Program-made: the position numbers and the translations under genes
Notes under the pieces: generated by a model
What the model saw: only the letters and a program-made list of their open reading frames with translations
Database searches by the model: none
Told to the model about the DNA's origin: nothing
Assembly (NCBI GenBank): GCA_021740915.1
Contig: JAIOYW010000014.1
Coordinates: 1-64,000 of the forward strand
DNA: 64,000 nucleotides
From: Ignavibacteriales bacterium
GTDB lineage: Bacteria > Bacteroidota > Ignavibacteria > Ignavibacteriales > Melioribacteraceae
Reading direction: 5' to 3'
Part shown: piece after piece, positions 42,503-51,687 of the stretch
How positions within the stretch are numbered: position 1 is the first letter of the stretch
How the letters are laid out: each line of letters begins with the position of its first letter

Positions 42503-44377
42503 ATGAAAAAGTATTTTGGTTTGCTAATAATCCTGATTTTTTTAGCGGGATGCAGCAGAGAAAGATTCAATGACGGGATGCTTTCCTATGAACCCGCAAA
42601 ACCGGAAAAAGGTAATGCTGTTGATATATATTATAATCCATCAGGAAGTAAACTTCAGGACAAAGCTAATATTTCTGCAATTGTTTATGCATATTATTCC
42701 GATGAATTTTCTGCTGCTGATATTGAATTAAAGAAGGAAGATTCTCTCTGGAAGGGAAGTTTTAAACCCACATCTGATGCTGAAGGGCTGCTTATAAAAT
42801 TTTACGATGGTGAAACTATTGATAATAATGAAGGGAAGGGTTATTTTATTTATCTGCATGATGGTGATATCCCGGTTCAGGGGGCGCTTTCCGGACATGC
42901 TACTTCATTGAATTCCTGGGGAAGATCACTTTCCGATCTCGAAAAAGATACAGCCACCGTTTCAACGCTTTATCGTGAAGAATTATCAAAATATCCAGGC
43001 TCAAAGGCAATGCTGCCGTATTTATCATTTATTGAGAGGAATGATAAGGAGAGACTTCCGGCGATGGCTGCCGCAGAAGCAGAACGTGTTAACGGGCTGA
43101 CCGACAAATCATATGAAGATTATATGCTGCTTTACTTATACGGGGAGAAATATATCGCTGGTTTTAAGCCTGAGACTGCCCTAAATAAACTTATTGAGAT
43201 TAAACCATCAGGCAGAATGGCTTTGAGTGAAGACATTAAATTGCTGAGCGCTGAGCAGGACATTGACAAAAAAATCGAACTGGCAAAAAAAGCGCTTGAA
43301 AAATATTCAGATAGTTTTAATAAAAACAATCTGCTTTCACGTCTGGTTTCGCTGACAATAAGAAGCGGTGATCCCGTTCAGTTCGAAAAAGTATATAATG
43401 CCTTTGCAGATAAGATAAACCCGATGTCATTAAATCAGGCAGCCTGGGACTTTGCTGAAAAAGGTGTGGCAATTGACAAAGCTGCAAATTATGCTCAGAC
43501 AGGTGTGAATTTATTTGAAGATATTCTTAAAAATAAAAACGACATGTTCCGTCAGCAATACCAGTCACCAAAAGAATACTTTGAAAATCTTGATTATTCT
43601 TATGGTATGATGCTTGATACTTATGCATATATTCTCGACATAAAAGGGGATTATAAATCGTCAGCAGATAATTATGCAAAAGCAGTTGAAAAAACAAAAG
43701 GCGATTCTCCGGAAATAAATGAAAAGTTAATTGTTTCTCTTGAAAAAACCGGTGAAAAGGAAAAACTGATTAAAGTGGCAGAAAGTTTTATTGCAACTGG
43801 TAAGAAGACTTCAAAGATTGAAGAGTTGTTTTCAAAATATTATTTGGAACTCAATCCGGGTGCAGACCTCACTGAAAAGATCAAAACATTAAAAGCAAAA
43901 GCTTATGCAAAAATTATTTCCGGATTAAAAGAGAAAGAAATGAATGAACCAGCTCCGCTTTTTACACTGATTAATCTGGCTGGCAAAACAATTTCTCTTA
44001 ATGATCTTAAAGGAAAGATTGTAATTATCGATTTCTGGGCAACATGGTGTGGTCCCTGCAGATCCTCTTTTCCGGGGATGCAGCAGGCACTTGACAAATT
44101 CGGCGGAGATGATGTTGAATTCCTGTTTATAAACACATGGGAAAATGTTCCCGACAAAAAGGATAATGCCGATAAATTTATTAAGGAGAATAAATATTCT
44201 TTTAATGTCCTCCTCGATCTTGATAATAAGGTAATTGAAAGTTATAAGGTACAGGGTATTCCAACAAAATTTATTGTCGGCAAGGATGGCAGCATTAAAT
44301 TCAAATCGGTTGGTTTTGGGGGGAGTTCTGAAGAATTAGTTAATGAATTAGGAGCCATGATCAGTATGCTGAAATAA
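42503..44377 (+). CDS. Lipoprotein with C-terminal TlpA/ResA-type thioredoxin domain
   Basis: A 624-residue protein with lipobox LAGC (Cys17). Residues about 20-125 form a beta-rich domain, 140-460 are helical with TPR-like features (YKSSADNYAKAVEK), and 485-624 a TlpA-like redoxin domain with WATWCGPCRSSF (Cys516 and Cys519) and cis-Pro motif GIPTKF. Such proteins act in the periplasm as disulfide reductases, for example for apocytochrome c. Its position 1.1 kb after ccmAB fits that role, though the redox partner is inferred. An ATG at 42503 has a good AGGGAG just upstream. Confidence 0.85.
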   Translation: MKKYFGLLIILIFLAGCSRERFNDGMLSYEPAKPEKGNAVDIYYNPSGSKLQDKANISAIVYAYYSDEFSAADIELKKEDSLWKGSFKPTSDAEGLLIKFYDGETIDNNEGKGYFIYLHDGDIPVQGALSGHATSLNSWGRSLSDLEKDTATVSTLYREELSKYPGSKAMLPYLSFIERNDKERLPAMAAAEAERVNGLTDKSYEDYMLLYLYGEKYIAGFKPETALNKLIEIKPSGRMALSEDIKLLSAEQDIDKKIELAKKALEKYSDSFNKNNLLSRLVSLTIRSGDPVQFEKVYNAFADKINPMSLNQAAWDFAEKGVAIDKAANYAQTGVNLFEDILKNKNDMFRQQYQSPKEYFENLDYSYGMMLDTYAYILDIKGDYKSSADNYAKAVEKTKGDSPEINEKLIVSLEKTGEKEKLIKVAESFIATGKKTSKIEELFSKYYLELNPGADLTEKIKTLKAKAYAKIISGLKEKEMNEPAPLFTLINLAGKTISLNDLKGKIVIIDFWATWCGPCRSSFPGMQQALDKFGGDDVEFLFINTWENVPDKKDNADKFIKENKYSFNVLLDLDNKVIESYKVQGIPTKFIVGKDGSIKFKSVGFGGSSEELVNELGAMISMLK

Positions 44378-44620
44378 ATATATTGTAAAAATTTTTCTGA
44401 AGGGATATGGATTTATTATCAAATCCCCTGCAAAAATTGAAAATGATTGCTATATTTAAAAACAATATGTAGATTAAGAATATATTTCATTTTTGATATA
44501 TTTTGATGCAGATCATAACATTCTGCATTTATTGAATGCATTTATCCTGTATCACGTATTTTCAGCGGTCTATGATGTATTTTTGAGCAGGTTTAATTAA
44601 TTATTATTATTGAGGTATAT

Positions 44621-45664
44621 ATGAAAACGAAACATCTGTTTACACTGATCTTATGGGGCTTACTGCTGATTACGCCTCTGAGAGCTCAATATACAGTAGA
44701 TCTTTTTATTCCTGACTCGTTTACTGAAGGAGAATTCCAGGCATTTGCGCTTGCGAATAACCTGCAGAACACGCCCAGGATATTCTATATTGATGTCTTG
44801 CCGCTGAATGTGCCGGTCTATCTTGAAGTGACAACTCAGTGGGCACGGGTTGGCAGCGCTACTTATCAGCAGCTATTCTGGTTCAAAACTAAAGTATATA
44901 ATAGCCAGCGAGTGTATAACGATATGCTCGGAACCACTGTAAAACTCGATCAGTCCGACATTGACGGTGCTCTCGCCGATGAGATCAGAGCAAAAGGTAA
45001 GCCGACTGGCAGTTTTAATATTTATGTAAAATTGTTTACTGCTGATGGTGTTTTGAGAAGCGAATTTCAGACCACAAAAGAATTCATTAACCCTTCACAG
45101 ACGATAAGTATATCGATGCCAGACCTTGGATCTACTCAGGAGATCGGATCTGTTTTGGCATTGTGGGATCAGGTTGAAGGAATCGATCGTTTTGAAGTGA
45201 AGATAAATTATCGCGAAGATCCGAATCAAAGTCTCGAAGAAGCACTTGATGCAGGGACACCTTTGGCAGATAATGTATCTGTCGGTACTGCGACTCAGGT
45301 TGATCTCAGGACAATTTTGCAAAGAGAATGGCTTGCAGGACAGGAAATCGTTTTCCAGGTAAGGGCTGTATTGCCTGCACCTGGCGGCAATAAGTATTTT
45401 TATAGCCAGATCATCAATTTCTTTATAAGAGGTCAACAGACTAACCAAACCCAACAATTAAACCAGACTTTGCTTGCTTTGGGGCAAACCCTTAGCGGGC
45501 TGCTGCCGCCTGACCTTGCAAATCAGCTTCTTAATGGCGATATGGGGCAGATGACTGAGATTTTGCTTGACGGACAGCTTGTCAGCACTGAAGAGCTTGC
45601 AGCTTTGTTGCTCGAACTTCAGTCAGATCCGGATAGAGTAATTAGAATTATTTTTGAGCAGTAA
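44621..45664 (+). CDS. Exported protein of unknown function, first gene of the CHASE2-cyclase operon
   Basis: A 347-residue protein with signal peptide KHLFTLILWGLLLITPLRA. The body (about 25-270) is rich in beta strands with no known motif (FIPDSFTEGEFQAFALANN, VALEVTTQW-like YLEVTTQWARVG). The C-terminal ~75 residues are Gln/Leu/Asn-rich and probably helical (QTNQTQQLNQTLLALGQTL, LLPPDLANQLLNGDMGQM). It is followed after 17 bp by the FecR-domain gene. I recognise no family; the operon context suggests a periplasmic or outer-membrane part of a sensing system. Confidence 0.7.
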   Translation: MKTKHLFTLILWGLLLITPLRAQYTVDLFIPDSFTEGEFQAFALANNLQNTPRIFYIDVLPLNVPVYLEVTTQWARVGSATYQQLFWFKTKVYNSQRVYNDMLGTTVKLDQSDIDGALADEIRAKGKPTGSFNIYVKLFTADGVLRSEFQTTKEFINPSQTISISMPDLGSTQEIGSVLALWDQVEGIDRFEVKINYREDPNQSLEEALDAGTPLADNVSVGTATQVDLRTILQREWLAGQEIVFQVRAVLPAPGGNKYFYSQIINFFIRGQQTNQTQQLNQTLLALGQTLSGLLPPDLANQLLNGDMGQMTEILLDGQLVSTEELAALLLELQSDPDRVIRIIFEQ

Positions 45665-45681
45665 TTAGGGAGAGGGAAAAA

Positions 45682-46365
45682 ATGAAAAAGAAATTATTTA
45701 TTATGAGTTTAGCCTTCGTTATGTCATTTGTATTTATGGCATCTGACAATATGAAAGATGAATCGGTTGCTGTTATTAATAAAGTCGTTAAAGATGTGAA
45801 TTTTAAACGTGGGGAAAGTGATTGGCAGAATGCCAAACCAGGCGTTACCCTTCTTGATCATGATGTTATTAAAACCGGTGCAAAATCACTTGCAGTAGTC
45901 AGTTTTCTTGATGGCTCAGTTGTCCGTCTCAGAGAGAACTCAGACCTTACAATTTACGGCAACAAAGCAGAGAAAAAATTAGACAAGAATGTTTATATCG
46001 ATAAAGGTGCCGTTGGTTTCGACGTCAAAAAACAGGAAGACGAAGAATTTAAGTTCACCACACCGACAATGGTGGCTTCGATCCGAGGCACTTCCGGTTC
46101 TATTGAAGTTGGACAGGATGGATTTACAATGGCAACTCTGCTGACAGGGCTTATGGAAATTGTAGCAACTTTAGGAGAGAAACAAAGCGGCACACTTAAT
46201 CCCGGGCAGACTGCAACGATTGACAGTAATGGAAACGTGGTTATTGAACTAACTACACAGCAGCAAAGTAATAATGCTAATCAAATTCAAAATACCGATA
46301 CTAAAACGATCAGGATTAAAACACCGGCTGGTACAATCGTAATTGAATATCTGAGCGGTGAATAA
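45682..46365 (+). CDS. Exported FecR-domain protein
   Basis: A 227-residue protein. The signal peptide is KKLFIMSLAFVMSFVFMAS, with no lipobox cysteine. The FecR core covers about 40-180: GVTLLDHDVIKTGAKSLAVV, FLDGSVVRLRENSDLTIYG, KGAVGFDVKK, PTMVASIRGTSG and LNPGQTATID. No membrane anti-sigma region is present, so this is not a classical FecR anti-sigma protein but the free periplasmic type. Linked to a beta-barrel gene 33 bp later and a CHASE2 adenylate cyclase. A role as a periplasmic ligand or stress sensor is inferred. Confidence 0.85.
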   Translation: MKKKLFIMSLAFVMSFVFMASDNMKDESVAVINKVVKDVNFKRGESDWQNAKPGVTLLDHDVIKTGAKSLAVVSFLDGSVVRLRENSDLTIYGNKAEKKLDKNVYIDKGAVGFDVKKQEDEEFKFTTPTMVASIRGTSGSIEVGQDGFTMATLLTGLMEIVATLGEKQSGTLNPGQTATIDSNGNVVIELTTQQQSNNANQIQNTDTKTIRIKTPAGTIVIEYLSGE

Positions 46366-46398
46366 ATAAGTTTGTAATAACTATTAACCGGATTGAAA

Positions 46399-48807
46399 AT
46401 GAACAACCTCATACAAATGATTTCAAAGTTCTTTTCAGCAGTTGTTTTGCTTTCATTACTTTCGGGCAATATTCATGCACAAATCAGTCAGAATATTTCG
46501 AAAGTGATCGTCGGCGATGCCAAAGAAAAAAGCGAACTCAACATTCAAGTTGAGTTATATAACACAAATGCCGAAGCTGTTCTTCTCTATTATAAGCCGG
46601 TGGAAGCCAGCGAATATCGAGAAGCCGAAATGGAATTAATTGGAACAAATGCCGGATATACAATACCGGCGGATGAGGTTGTTCCTCCTTTCCTTGCCTA
46701 TTATATTCAGGTAAGGATGAATGATGGATCATTTGAAAATTATCCTCTCGGAGCACCTGATAATGCTCCTCCGAGCAGGATTATGGTCAGTATTCCTCAG
46801 GACAAAGATTCTGAACTGATTTTTCTGAGTCCCGGAGCTAAAGGAGAAAATATTCCGGAGGATGAATTCTTTATATCAATTTCTCTGCTGCGTGCATCGG
46901 AAAAAGTAAAGAAAGAAGCAACGAAAATATACCTTGGAGCGCTCGACCTGACTCCAAATCTGATTTTTGCCGGCGACATGATACTTTATTACCCTGATAA
47001 TCTTCCTAAAAATGTGTATATGGGTTCGAACCAGCTGCGTGTTGAACTTTACGATCAGGAAGGGAATCTTTATCATTCACTCGTGCGGAATTTCATTGTT
47101 CGGCAGACACAAGAAGTTGAGTTAATCGGCGGTAAATTCACCTATCGCGGAAATGTTAAGGCTGAATCCCGCAATGAAGGATTTTCGGGAACAGGACAGA
47201 ATTTATGGTATAATAATATTGGTGTTGATGCGAGTGCCGGTTGGGGAAATTGGAAATTTAACACAAAAGTTTATGCCACTTCTGAAGAGAAAAAATATCT
47301 TCAGCCTCAAAACAGATATTACCTTGGCATTGAAAGTGACTGGCTTAAAGTAAGAGTTGGCGATATTTACCCGGTATTTCCGAATCTTATTATGAGCGGC
47401 AGAAGAATCCGGGGCGCCACCGGACGATTAGAACTTGGTGCATTCAATCTGCACGTTATTTACGGACAGGCGAACCGAGCCGTTGAGGGCGCTTTGCTTC
47501 AGACATACAGCCGGAACAACGCTCCGATCGCTTCCAACATTATTGGAATTGATTCAGTGAAATATGGTAATCCGTATGGCGAGGTGAATACCGGAACCTA
47601 CGAGAGAAAACTTTTTGCATTAAGACCTTATTTTGGAAAAGGCGAGAATTTCCAGTGGGGGCTTTCATATCTTCACTCGAAAGATGACCCCAAATCAATT
47701 GAATTTGCTGCGAGACCAAAAGAGAATGTTGTTTTTGGTTCTGATCTCCTTGTCGCATTTGATGACAGGAACATTCTTTTTACCGGACAAGCCGCAGTCA
47801 GTTTGTTTAATACCGATATTAGCGGTGGAACACTTACTGATGCAGAGATTGACAGTATTTTTGGAACGAGTGATTATATTAATATTGATCCGCAGAATGT
47901 CAAAGATATCAAACAGTATCTTGGCAGTTTTATGACCGTTAATCAATTTATTGGTCCGCTTAATCCTGAGAAAATGTCATCTCTTGCAAGTGAAGCCCAG
48001 CTTCAGTTGAATTACTTCCATAATAATATCAGTGGTAAGTATATTTACAGAGGAAATGAATACACTTCTTTCGGTCAGTCTTATCTTCGTCTCGACGTGA
48101 AAGGATATGAATTCAGCGACAGGATCAGACTTTTTGATAACAGACTTTTTATTACAGTAGCTTATGAAAGTCTGAGTGACAACCTTCAAAAGACCAAAAT
48201 AACAACAACAACTTTTAATAAATTTACCGGAACAGTCTCAATCTTTCCCCGGATAAATATGCCAAATATAACCCTGGGTTATAATAGATTCGAGAACCAG
48301 AGTGATATTACAATATTTGATCCAAATTATGGTTTATACGCCGTTGATGATATTACAGACAGATATTTCGGCCAATTTAATTATGATTTTATCTGGAGTA
48401 TTCGTCACAATGCTGTTCTTAATGTCTCGATTTCAGACAGAAAGGATAGGAGCTTACGAAATTCGAATGCGAAGAACTTCACAGGTTCTTTGTCTCTTGC
48501 AAGTGACTGGCGCAAAAATTTCACATCATTTTTTAGTTCCACTTACTACACAAGTGAAATTATTGCAACTCAGTTTAATTATTTTGCCTTCAGTCTTGGC
48601 GGCAAATATAAACTGATGGAGAATAGATTAATTCTTACCGGATCAATTGGCCCCAGTTTCGGAGATTTTAAGCGGCAGTCTTTTGAATTCTTAGCTCAGT
48701 ATTTTATTATGCCGAATTTCGATGTGACCTTCCAGTCACGTGTTTTCCATATACCGTCTCAGGGAACAAACACAATAGTGGGTGTTAACACCAGGTACGG
48801 CTTTTAA
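46399..48807 (+). CDS. Outer-membrane beta-barrel protein with N-terminal beta domain
   Basis: An 802-residue protein from the ATG at 46399; an in-frame TTG at 46393 is less likely. The signal peptide ends NIHAQ. Residues about 28-230 form one or two immunoglobulin-like domains (LNIQVELYNTNAEAVLLYYK, QLRVELYDQEGNLYHSLV). From about 250 to the end there are many amphipathic strands, and the chain ends in an aromatic residue (NTRYGF), which is the signal for BAM-dependent insertion. I know no transport function for it. Sits between the FecR gene and the CHASE2 cyclase (17 bp). Confidence 0.78.
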   Translation: MNNLIQMISKFFSAVVLLSLLSGNIHAQISQNISKVIVGDAKEKSELNIQVELYNTNAEAVLLYYKPVEASEYREAEMELIGTNAGYTIPADEVVPPFLAYYIQVRMNDGSFENYPLGAPDNAPPSRIMVSIPQDKDSELIFLSPGAKGENIPEDEFFISISLLRASEKVKKEATKIYLGALDLTPNLIFAGDMILYYPDNLPKNVYMGSNQLRVELYDQEGNLYHSLVRNFIVRQTQEVELIGGKFTYRGNVKAESRNEGFSGTGQNLWYNNIGVDASAGWGNWKFNTKVYATSEEKKYLQPQNRYYLGIESDWLKVRVGDIYPVFPNLIMSGRRIRGATGRLELGAFNLHVIYGQANRAVEGALLQTYSRNNAPIASNIIGIDSVKYGNPYGEVNTGTYERKLFALRPYFGKGENFQWGLSYLHSKDDPKSIEFAARPKENVVFGSDLLVAFDDRNILFTGQAAVSLFNTDISGGTLTDAEIDSIFGTSDYINIDPQNVKDIKQYLGSFMTVNQFIGPLNPEKMSSLASEAQLQLNYFHNNISGKYIYRGNEYTSFGQSYLRLDVKGYEFSDRIRLFDNRLFITVAYESLSDNLQKTKITTTTFNKFTGTVSIFPRINMPNITLGYNRFENQSDITIFDPNYGLYAVDDITDRYFGQFNYDFIWSIRHNAVLNVSISDRKDRSLRNSNAKNFTGSLSLASDWRKNFTSFFSSTYYTSEIIATQFNYFAFSLGGKYKLMENRLILTGSIGPSFGDFKRQSFEFLAQYFIMPNFDVTFQSRVFHIPSQGTNTIVGVNTRYGF

Positions 48808-48824
48808 TATACTGTTCCTGATAT

Positions 48825-51071
48825 ATGGATAAAAAAGGCACCCGGAAAAAAAACTGGGCGGCTCAATTATATGTTGCGATTGGCGTTGCAGTTCTCGCTG
48901 TAATAATAACGCGGGACATATTTTTTTCAATTGGACCGCTAAATGACCTCAAGTTAAAATTTATCGATGAGAGGTTCGACCGACGTGGTGAAATAACCCT
49001 CGATAGTTCGGATGTGGTCATTGTTGAAATGACTCAGGCTTCCTACGATCAGATACCCCCACCATACCGTGCTGCCCCATGGCCAAGAAATCTTTATGCG
49101 CGGCTAATTGAAAATCTCAACGAAGCCGGGGCAAAAGCTATCGGGATAGATGTTGTTATGTCTAATACTGACAGGCTTGATCCTAAGAATGATCAAAAGC
49201 TGATCAATGCAATTCGCAGGTACGGAAATGTTGTCGTTGCCGGCAAAGTCAATGAGGTCAGGGAGGCAATGCTTGAGGGGACATTTTCGGATTACAGCAG
49301 TTCAGTTGCAATCGTTAAGAAAAGTGTTGAGGATTATTCCAGCCTTTTTTATCAGGCTGATAGTTCTATAGGAATTGTACAGGTAATCTCCGATAAAGAC
49401 GGGGTTCACAGAAGATATACACCTTTTGTTTATTCAGCATCGTCCGATAGCCGTGTCCCCAGCTTTAGCTTTGCTGTTCTGAATAAGTATCTGGGATTGC
49501 CGGCAAACACAACCGCTGAAATTAAACCTAATTATTTTGAATTGGGCCCCTATCGTATTCCCAAATATGATAATACGACAATGCTCGTGAATTTTTATGG
49601 AATCAGTAATCTTCAGACATTCAAACACATAAATTTTGTAGATGTTATTGATGATAAAGACTTTAACACCGTTGATGAAATTGATCTTGAGGAAGAGATA
49701 AACACCTGGGATGATCCGGATTTTGGACTAAAATATTCAGGTATATTCAAGGATAAAGTTGTGCTTGTCGGGTCAACAATGCCTGAAGACCGAGATGTTA
49801 TCTCAGTTGCGATTTCCAGAGGAAAAAGAGCAGGAGATAACCAGATGTATGGGGTTGAACTCCATGCAACAGCTCTCCAGAATATCATTATTAATGATTT
49901 TATAAGGGTTCAGTCCAAAAACTGGGAAATAATCCTTACGATTGTAATTACGTTTTTTGGTTTTTTTATTTCATCATGGATTAAATCAATCAAATCCAAA
50001 TATGGAGTTTTGCTCGAAATTGCGAATCTTCTGCTGATCCTTGGGATCATGTATGGATTCTATGAGTTTTCGATGCAGCTTTTTATCCATTCCAAGCTTA
50101 TTCTTACTATTGTACCACAGGCTGTCGCTTTAACATTAGGCTATTTTGGCAGCACCGCATATAATTTTCTTGTTGAGCGATACCAGAGTACGGAAATAAA
50201 AAGGATGTTTACGCATTATGTCAGTGGGGAATTAGTAAATGAACTTATCAATCACCCCGATAAACTGAAACTTGGCGGCGACAGGAAAGAGCTGACAATA
50301 TTTTTTAGTGATATTGCAGGTTTTTCAACATTTTCAGAAAAAATGGAACCAGAAGAACTCGTCGGTCTGATGAATGAATACCTTACAGAGATGACTAATA
50401 TTGTATTCCAGAATAAAGGTACACTTGATAAATACGTTGGCGACGCAATCATGTCTTTCTGGGGTGCTCCTGTATTCTATGAGGACCATGCTCATAAAGC
50501 TTGTATTTCATCTATTACTATGCTTGAAAAGCTTGATGATTTAAGAAAGCGCTGGAATGAACGGGGACTTCCAAGTATAGACATTCGTATCGGGGTAAAT
50601 ACCGGCGATGTAATTGTTGGAAACGTAGGAAGTGCAAGCCGTTTTGATTTCACTGTAATGGGAGATACCGTAAATCTCGCATCACGACTGGAAGGGGTTA
50701 ACAAACAATACGGAACCCGCGCAATAATAAGTGAAACAACTTATGAGCATGTAAAAGATTCTTTTCTTGCAAGAGAACTGGACAAGATAACAGTGAAAGG
50801 CAAAAAAGTTCCAACTAAAATATTTGAACTCATTGGTGAAAAGGGCAATGAATCAGCCGAGAAAAAGATCGCCTATCTTCAGCCTTTTCTCCAGGGTTTA
50901 GCTTTTTACAAGGAGAAACGATTCGAAGATGCTCTGCCTTTCTTCGAGAGTCTTATCTCCGAGGAGGAATCAGATCCTCCCTCCATCGTATATGCGAAGC
51001 GGTGCAAATTTTACATGGAAAATCCACCAGAACCAGATTGGGATGGAGTTTTCGAAATGAAAACAAAATAG
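48825..51071 (+). CDS. CHASE2-domain adenylate cyclase, class IIIb-like
   Basis: A 748-residue membrane protein. Helix 1 is at 12-30 and the periplasmic CHASE2 domain at 40-350 (RDIFFSIGPLNDLKLKFIDERF, cut here: WPRNLYARLIENL, KVVLVGST). Three helices follow (365-385, 398-412, 424-442), then a class III cyclase domain at 485-650 and a short C-terminal helical tail. Metal ligands are Asp496 and Asp540. Lys536 specifies adenine, and Thr610 replaces the usual Asp, which is the class IIIb pattern. Asn617 and Arg621 bind the transition state. It should make cAMP in response to a periplasmic signal, and bicarbonate sensitivity is possible. Last of four genes with short gaps. Confidence 0.92.
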   Translation: MDKKGTRKKNWAAQLYVAIGVAVLAVIITRDIFFSIGPLNDLKLKFIDERFDRRGEITLDSSDVVIVEMTQASYDQIPPPYRAAPWPRNLYARLIENLNEAGAKAIGIDVVMSNTDRLDPKNDQKLINAIRRYGNVVVAGKVNEVREAMLEGTFSDYSSSVAIVKKSVEDYSSLFYQADSSIGIVQVISDKDGVHRRYTPFVYSASSDSRVPSFSFAVLNKYLGLPANTTAEIKPNYFELGPYRIPKYDNTTMLVNFYGISNLQTFKHINFVDVIDDKDFNTVDEIDLEEEINTWDDPDFGLKYSGIFKDKVVLVGSTMPEDRDVISVAISRGKRAGDNQMYGVELHATALQNIIINDFIRVQSKNWEIILTIVITFFGFFISSWIKSIKSKYGVLLEIANLLLILGIMYGFYEFSMQLFIHSKLILTIVPQAVALTLGYFGSTAYNFLVERYQSTEIKRMFTHYVSGELVNELINHPDKLKLGGDRKELTIFFSDIAGFSTFSEKMEPEELVGLMNEYLTEMTNIVFQNKGTLDKYVGDAIMSFWGAPVFYEDHAHKACISSITMLEKLDDLRKRWNERGLPSIDIRIGVNTGDVIVGNVGSASRFDFTVMGDTVNLASRLEGVNKQYGTRAIISETTYEHVKDSFLARELDKITVKGKKVPTKIFELIGEKGNESAEKKIAYLQPFLQGLAFYKEKRFEDALPFFESLISEEESDPPSIVYAKRCKFYMENPPEPDWDGVFEMKTK

Positions 51072-51098: not shown

Positions 51099-51129
51099 AA
51101 AAAAAGCCTCGAATTTCGAGGCTTTTTTT
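51099..51129. terminator. Bidirectional Rho-independent terminator
   Basis: AGCCTCG and CGAGGCT form a stem with a run of A before it and seven T after it, so both strands see a hairpin plus U-tract. It serves the cyclase operon (plus, stop 51071) and the CBM48-like gene (minus, stop 51149). Confidence 0.9.
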
Positions 51130-51148: not shown

Positions 51149-51460
51149 TCAGAGTTTAATTACAGAATTCTCTGAATCGCCATAAGGTGTTGGAATCTGA
51201 GCATCAGCTTCCGGCTCATTTATCCAAACGTTACCATTAAGAAGATATCTGAAAAGATATTCTTTTGAAGCATCGAGCTCAATTATTATTGAAAATGAAC
51301 CATCTTTTTTGAGTTTGTTCATCTCGTTTGCCGTTGCATTCCAGTTGTTAAAATCTCCGACAAGGCTGGCGCTATCAATGTCCTTGGCAATGTCTTTTCC
51401 AATGCGGAAAGTTACTTTGCATTTTGTTTTGTCTTTGTTGAACTGCTTTTTAAGTGACAT
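51149..51460 (-). CDS. Isoamylase N-terminal/CBM48-like glycogen-recognition domain protein
   Basis: A 103-residue protein starting at the ATG at 51460 with CAGGAGA at suitable distance upstream on the minus strand; an upstream ATG at 51520 is less likely. The single domain has the early-set pattern ASLVGDFNNWNATANEM and KEYLFRYLLNGNVWINEPEAD that marks CBM48/AMPK-beta-type folds. These bind glycogen or other alpha-glucans. No enzyme domain follows and no signal peptide is present, so it would act in the cytoplasm, possibly as a glycogen-associated adaptor. Stands alone. Confidence 0.8.
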   Translation of the reverse strand: MSLKKQFNKDKTKCKVTFRIGKDIAKDIDSASLVGDFNNWNATANEMNKLKKDGSFSIIIELDASKEYLFRYLLNGNVWINEPEADAQIPTPYGDSENSVIKL

Positions 51461-51687
51461 ATATTCTCCTGTGATAATATTCAAAAAAAGTATAAAAAAA
51501 TCCTTACAATTCCCTTGCAAGGATCCCTGGACGTAAAAAGCGGCACTAAGAACTCTTACATGTTTGTAAGTAATAAGTTACCGCACCATAAAAAGAAAAC
51601 ATTATTTATTACTGCAAATTTAACAATAACTTATTAAAATACAAAAGATACTTTCAGCTTTAGTGCCCTTCGTCAACAATTGAAGCA

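Follow-up and report, generated by a model that had tools for sequence, protein, structure and literature searches.

A conserved four-gene operon of Ignavibacteriales encoding a FecR-domain protein, a predicted outer-membrane barrel, and a CHASE2 adenylate cyclase

A 64,000-nucleotide stretch of DNA from an Ignavibacteriales bacterium of the family Melioribacteraceae (assembly GCA_021740915.1, contig JAIOYW010000014.1, positions 1 to 64,000; hereafter the window) carries four plus-strand genes at 44621-51071, which encode a protein here called G1, a FecR-domain protein, a predicted outer-membrane barrel protein (BB), and a CHASE2 cyclase (CYC). These genes, and the features that delimit them, are as follows.

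44621..45664, plus strand: G1, 347 amino acids
45682..46365, plus strand: FecR-domain protein, 227 amino acids
46399..48807, plus strand: BB, predicted outer-membrane barrel protein, ATG start, 802 amino acids
48825..51071, plus strand: CYC, CHASE2 cyclase, 748 amino acids
51099..51129, both strands: bidirectional intrinsic terminator, perfect 15-nucleotide arms (51099-51113 and 51115-51129), 1-nucleotide centre, A7/T7 flanks
44378..44620, plus strand: presumed promoter region before G1, 243 bp, holding the inverted repeat ATGCAGA-N9-TCTGCAT (44506-44528)

The open reading frame (ORF) calls and their coordinates bear out the four-gene operon described in the initial annotation, with intergenic gaps of 17, 33, and 17 bp; an alternative in-frame TTG start of the barrel gene at 46393 would give a product of 804 amino acids and a FecR–barrel gap of 27 bp. 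The single bidirectional terminator placed at the end of the operon was likewise recovered, with folding energies of −17.6 and −18.2 kcal/mol on the two strands and a z-score of about −6 relative to shuffled sequences. The terminator is common to the operon and a convergent minus-strand gene (51149-51520), the small product of which carries a CBM48/AMPK-type glycogen-binding domain.

A search for the same neighbourhood elsewhere, which the initial annotation had proposed, was made with a profile of each part, run genome-wide in 146 related genomes, with strong matches listed by hand. The neighbourhood was found: all four genes are present in 71 of the relatives and some of them in 7 (mostly fragmented contigs), amounting to 78 genomes with any and 68 with none. 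Where both partners were detected, G1 and FecR were adjacent in 72 of 72 genomes, FecR and the barrel in 67 of 73, and the barrel and the cyclase in 72 of 73, every exception being a case of genes on different contigs. Cyclase orthologues with 42-54% identity occur in about 77 of the 146. Among the first 36 loci fetched with an orthologous cyclase, the arrangement G1–FecR–barrel–cyclase was seen in all 33 that had enough upstream sequence, and in the remaining three (L045, L046, and L066) the contig ends within or just past the barrel gene. In a separate genome collection, scanned with the barrel alignment A3 because the broad alignment A5 had no sufficiently conserved stretch, the full arrangement was present at 54 of 67 loci, with contig ends interrupting most of the others; one isolate that bears a name, Stygiobacter electus strain 09-Me, also has the complete set.

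Beyond the order Ignavibacteriales, eight more families of the phylum show the arrangement: the barrel and cyclase genes are adjacent in 13 genomes that represent five further families of the class, and in 26 genomes from three additional families of the phylum. The barrel–cyclase pair is thus kept in 39 of the 45 barrel-bearing genomes outside the order, and FecR was also detected in 34 of these 39; one of the five misses in the genome search, L104, does carry a FecR gene when its locus is read directly. The gene order is kept across dozens of genera despite protein identities of 23-54%, a degree of conservation far beyond chance.

G1 consists of a predicted signal peptide, two predicted beta-sandwich domains resembling immunoglobulin (Ig) or fibronectin type III (Fn3) domains, and a helical C-terminus (AlphaFold2 model with a predicted local distance difference test score, pLDDT, of 80.8 and a predicted template modelling score, pTM, of 0.46), and it has no significant Pfam or NCBIfam family. 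A G1 orthologue occupies the same position at every locus of the order with sufficient upstream sequence. Beyond the order, most of the loci read have a match to the G1 profile where one would be expected, although it is weak in the most distant; family f10 has in that position an exported ORF of G1-like size that does not match the profile. Assignment of G1 as a phage-tail or receptor-like protein was rejected, the matches amounting to resemblance to the Ig/Fn3-type fold only, and so was homology between G1 and the N-terminal domains of the window's barrel protein (hhalign probability 4%).

The FecR protein matches Pfam FecR (PF04773, 2.8e-15), and a hydrophobic N-terminal segment (residues 3-23) is the sole element before the FecR region; the protein has no cytoplasmic anti-sigma domain, no cysteine, and no lipobox, and no solved structure matching it by sequence was found. 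Homology links its FecR domain to the one in NsrA of Sinorhizobium meliloti (hhalign probability 97.5%, E 8.2e-12). In other families of the class, three FecR proteins (L096:8712-10418, L098:8511-9587, and L101:6775-7863) carry one to three extra domains resembling the N-terminal Ig-like domain of the barrel protein, which provides an internal hint that FecR and the barrel belong together.

With respect to the barrel protein, an AlphaFold2 model built from a 26-orthologue alignment (pLDDT 82.9, pTM 0.58) shows a signal peptide, two Ig-like domains (about residues 33-235), and a predicted barrel of about 26 long strands (248-801). The absence of Pfam matches and the model both indicate a barrel without a plug or an STN domain. 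No significant Pfam or NCBIfam family was found for the protein, the mean column identity of which is 53% across the 26 orthologues. The best fold matches of the model are large outer-membrane barrels, namely the MtrB sheath, the FimD/PapC ushers, and TonB receptors; these matches are weak and generic, with query TM-scores of about 0.36 or less and 8-11% identity, and assignment of the protein as a TonB-dependent receptor or an usher was rejected because of this generic character.

The cyclase contains CHASE2 (PF05226, 3.6e-52) and Guanylate_cyc (PF00211, 7.4e-28) domains. Its hydropathy profile indicates a transmembrane segment at residues 10-39, followed by the periplasmic CHASE2 domain, transmembrane segments near 367-413, and finally the class III cyclase domain. 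The active-site set is complete, comprising the metal aspartates D496 and D540, the adenine pair K536 and T610, and the transition-state pair N617 and R621, and all six residues are invariant in 26 of 26 orthologues; the closest solved relative, judged by the best PDB match, is CyaB (3r5g). As judged from these residues, the protein is a class III adenylate cyclase of the Lys/Thr type with an intact active site. The full-length profile is matched mainly by operon-linked cyclases, and most paralogues match just from about residue 200-340 on. Three further CHASE2 cyclases are encoded in the same genome (L055, L056, and L057, on contigs C10, C29, and C6), and their exported neighbours are a CsgG-like protein, a DUF4384-like protein, and a tetratricopeptide repeat (TPR)-CHAT protein; each CHASE2 cyclase appears to be paired with an envelope partner of its own. 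A possible reader of the cyclic AMP (cAMP) output is a CRP-type regulator also encoded in the genome, the phosphate-binding cassette of which is GEM-LTRSA.

In S. meliloti, NsrA is an outer-membrane receptor that is needed, as is CyaK, for a cAMP reporter to be activated in response to the signal (PMC7529298); the output of the CHASE2 cyclase is reported to rise through NsrA (PMC13001267). With modest confidence, we favour the interpretation that the operon encodes one envelope-spanning signalling module with cAMP as its output, that is, a split-gene counterpart of NsrA–CyaK. It is based on co-inheritance in tight order in more than a hundred genomes, export signals on G1, the FecR protein, and the barrel protein, the topology, the intact active site, and the homology of FecR to NsrA. 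We infer the contacts between the proteins, the sign and direction of the signal, the ligand, and the role of G1. In the proposed mechanism, the barrel would act in the outer membrane as a receptor or a sensor of the envelope state, and its two periplasmic Ig-like domains, with G1, would keep the FecR protein in place or display it. Binding of the FecR domain to the CHASE2 domain might then maintain the cyclase in an inactive or an active state, a ligand or a mechanical event at the barrel might alter this contact to raise or lower cAMP, and the changed cAMP level might act via a CRP-type regulator. A broader proposal, which we advance tentatively as possible but rather less than even, is that a plugless barrel, an exported Ig-domain G1, and a stand-alone FecR protein jointly gate a CHASE2 adenylate cyclase in a widespread, undescribed family of cell-surface signalling systems, with FecR being a general periplasmic switch for CHASE2 receptors.

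Several observations weigh against the signalling interpretation. The mirror-tree style distance correlation, although positive for all pairs of parts (partial r 0.31-0.73, permutation p 0.002), reflects co-inheritance only and cannot separate contact from it. Six genomes, which belong to families f19 and f34, have the barrel gene away from the cyclase gene; at the four barrel loci read there, it stands alone beside TPR and HIT genes, and the FecR gene lies elsewhere with an exported, often G1-like neighbour, in some loci adjoining ftsX (loci read in these families: L095, L097, L100, L102, and L107-L113). Two Ignavibacteria loci (L171:5617-12376 and L183:9106-15867) have G1–FecR–barrel without an adjacent cyclase gene, the place of which is taken by other genes, the first resembling alanine dehydrogenase, and L161 has barrel–cyclase without FecR. 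The linkage of the unit is thus strong without being absolute. Furthermore, the barrels of the operon and of NsrA are not detectably homologous, with no hmmsearch hit and an hhalign probability of 0.05%, and a separate FecR protein of S. meliloti coded close to cyaD1, SMc02177, is dispensable for shoot-signal perception (PMC5498481). In related genomes, the unlinked scattering of homologues that the initial annotation had named as the outcome speaking against a system did not occur, with f19/f34, L171, and L183 as exceptions. Of the relay from barrel to cAMP that it had drawn, co-inheritance as a unit and a fitting topology (a barrel with periplasmic Ig domains, an exported FecR protein, a periplasmic CHASE2 domain, and a cytoplasmic cyclase domain) stand, although the trio is not always found beside a cyclase gene.

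The G1–FecR–barrel loci without a cyclase gene (L171 and L183) and the solitary barrel genes of f19/f34 would suit a secretion or assembly device, in which something is exported or assembled by the barrel, with G1 and FecR assisting it in the periplasm or being its cargo, and the cyclase does no more than report on the state of the barrel or is co-expressed with it. The MtrB sheath and the FimD/PapC ushers among the best fold matches would also agree with such a device. We regard it as unlikely, given that those matches are as weak and generic as described above, that no usher chaperone, haem protein, or secretion genes were found near the operon in the ORF list or by Pfam, and that in most lineages the cyclase is never parted from the barrel.

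The dispensability of SMc02177 also bears on the possibility that FecR has a surface or structural role and no part in controlling the cyclase, with the operon just coordinating expression. Weak NCBIfam similarity of the FecR protein to Lsa33 (2.6e-12) and LipL45 (7.2e-09) of Leptospira, both far below the cut-off, points in the same direction. However, the FecR–CHASE2 pairing recurs in several phyla, including a fused FecR–barrel receptor with cAMP phenotypes (PMC7529298), and a purely structural role for FecR appears highly improbable.

The surroundings of the operon suggest a further alternative, namely a sensor of the envelope state without an outside ligand, in which the set monitors the condition of the outer membrane or cell wall, G1 and FecR bind envelope material, and cAMP is tuned accordingly. 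In class-level relatives (L087, L089-L094, L096, L098, and L101), the operon lies directly 3′ of dxr and an M50 (RseP-type) site-2 protease gene (Pfam check at L089 only), and Escherichia coli RseP is reported to cleave FecR (PMC8144685); in Burkholderia, FecR proteins with LysM domains are encoded beside CHASE2 kinases (PMC5192318). However, dxr–rseP is a housekeeping pair, and its adjacency to the operon may therefore mean little. The operon in the window, unlike those of the class-level relatives, is not preceded by this pair. As no LysM or other wall-binding domain was found by Pfam in the operon proteins either, we consider a ligand-free envelope sensor quite unlikely, and retain the signalling module as the preferred interpretation.

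Upstream of G1, positions 44506-44540 hold overlapping inverted repeats, ATGCAGA-N9-TCTGCAT and TGCATT-N5-AATGCA, which are a possible operator. The preceding gene, on the same strand and 243 bp before the operon (42503-44377), encodes a lipoprotein-like protein in which a long N-terminal region precedes an AhpC/TSA (TlpA-like) thioredoxin domain at the C-terminus. No sigma-factor match was found among the scanned genes around the operon.

CHASE2 receptors are found across many bacteria. Because this operon encodes the FecR domain, the barrel, and the receptor as individual proteins, each contact is testable alone, which the fused NsrA does not allow. In addition, the families of G1 and the barrel, both unnamed, gain a testable role, and the scope of FecR widens beyond sigma factors towards the control of second messengers in Ignavibacteria and their relatives.

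Comparison with known systems begins with NsrA–CyaK (CyaD1/D2), in which a FecR domain, an outer-membrane barrel, and a CHASE2 adenylate cyclase likewise come from adjacent genes, and for which mutant evidence exists (PMC7529298, PMC13001267). The initial annotation, which knew of no experimentally described pathway joining the four parts, needs correcting here, in that NsrA–CyaK joins three of them. The FecR domains and the cyclases of the two systems are homologous, and FecR is encoded beside the cyclase in both, here in an operon and there fused and directly upstream: the gene upstream of cyaK, read directly, codes for 1190 amino acids with a FecR domain (66-160), TPRs, and a C-terminal region reported as a barrel, and overlaps cyaK by 1 bp. 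Thus, the FecR domain, TPRs, and barrel lie on one polypeptide in S. meliloti, whereas they are encoded by separate genes, without a TPR match, in the operon; the stretch of the nsrA–cyaK locus shown has no G1 counterpart, the output regulator there is Clr, and the ligand candidate is the plant ribosomal uL2 protein. The operon is a real, conserved, and undescribed split-gene variant of FecR/barrel/CHASE2 cyclase signalling.

Related pairings are found more widely. Methylocystis has a FecR-TPR protein in the length class of NsrA beside a cyclase, and in Shinella and Paracoccus a CHASE2 cyclase gene is accompanied by a separate FecR gene; Azospirillum lacks such a pairing. Gene clusters of FecR and CHASE2 adenylate cyclase are described in Campylobacterota, where a FecR-domain envelope protein similarly adjoins the cyclase and the two are put forward as one pathway (PMC9239204); in the working model of Garnerone (2018), as that paper cites it, such modules inhibit the cyclase. 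Unlike in the operon, the partners there are a phosphodiesterase and a TPR protein, with no separate large barrel or G1 described. The Burkholderia BiofilmReg operon also encodes a FecR-domain protein followed by a CHASE2 receptor, but its FecR is joined to LysM, the receptor is a CHASE2 histidine kinase with a response regulator, and there is no barrel (PMC5192318). In magnetotactic bacteria, the exported Ig-TPR protein MtxA is followed by a CHASE2 cyclase (PMC4439547). Finally, as in cell-surface signalling of the FecIRA type, a FecR domain stands in the path from an outer-membrane protein to an output in the cytoplasm; unlike in FecIRA, there is neither an extracytoplasmic function (ECF) sigma factor nor a TonB-dependent receptor, FecR lacks an anti-sigma domain, and the predicted output is cAMP.

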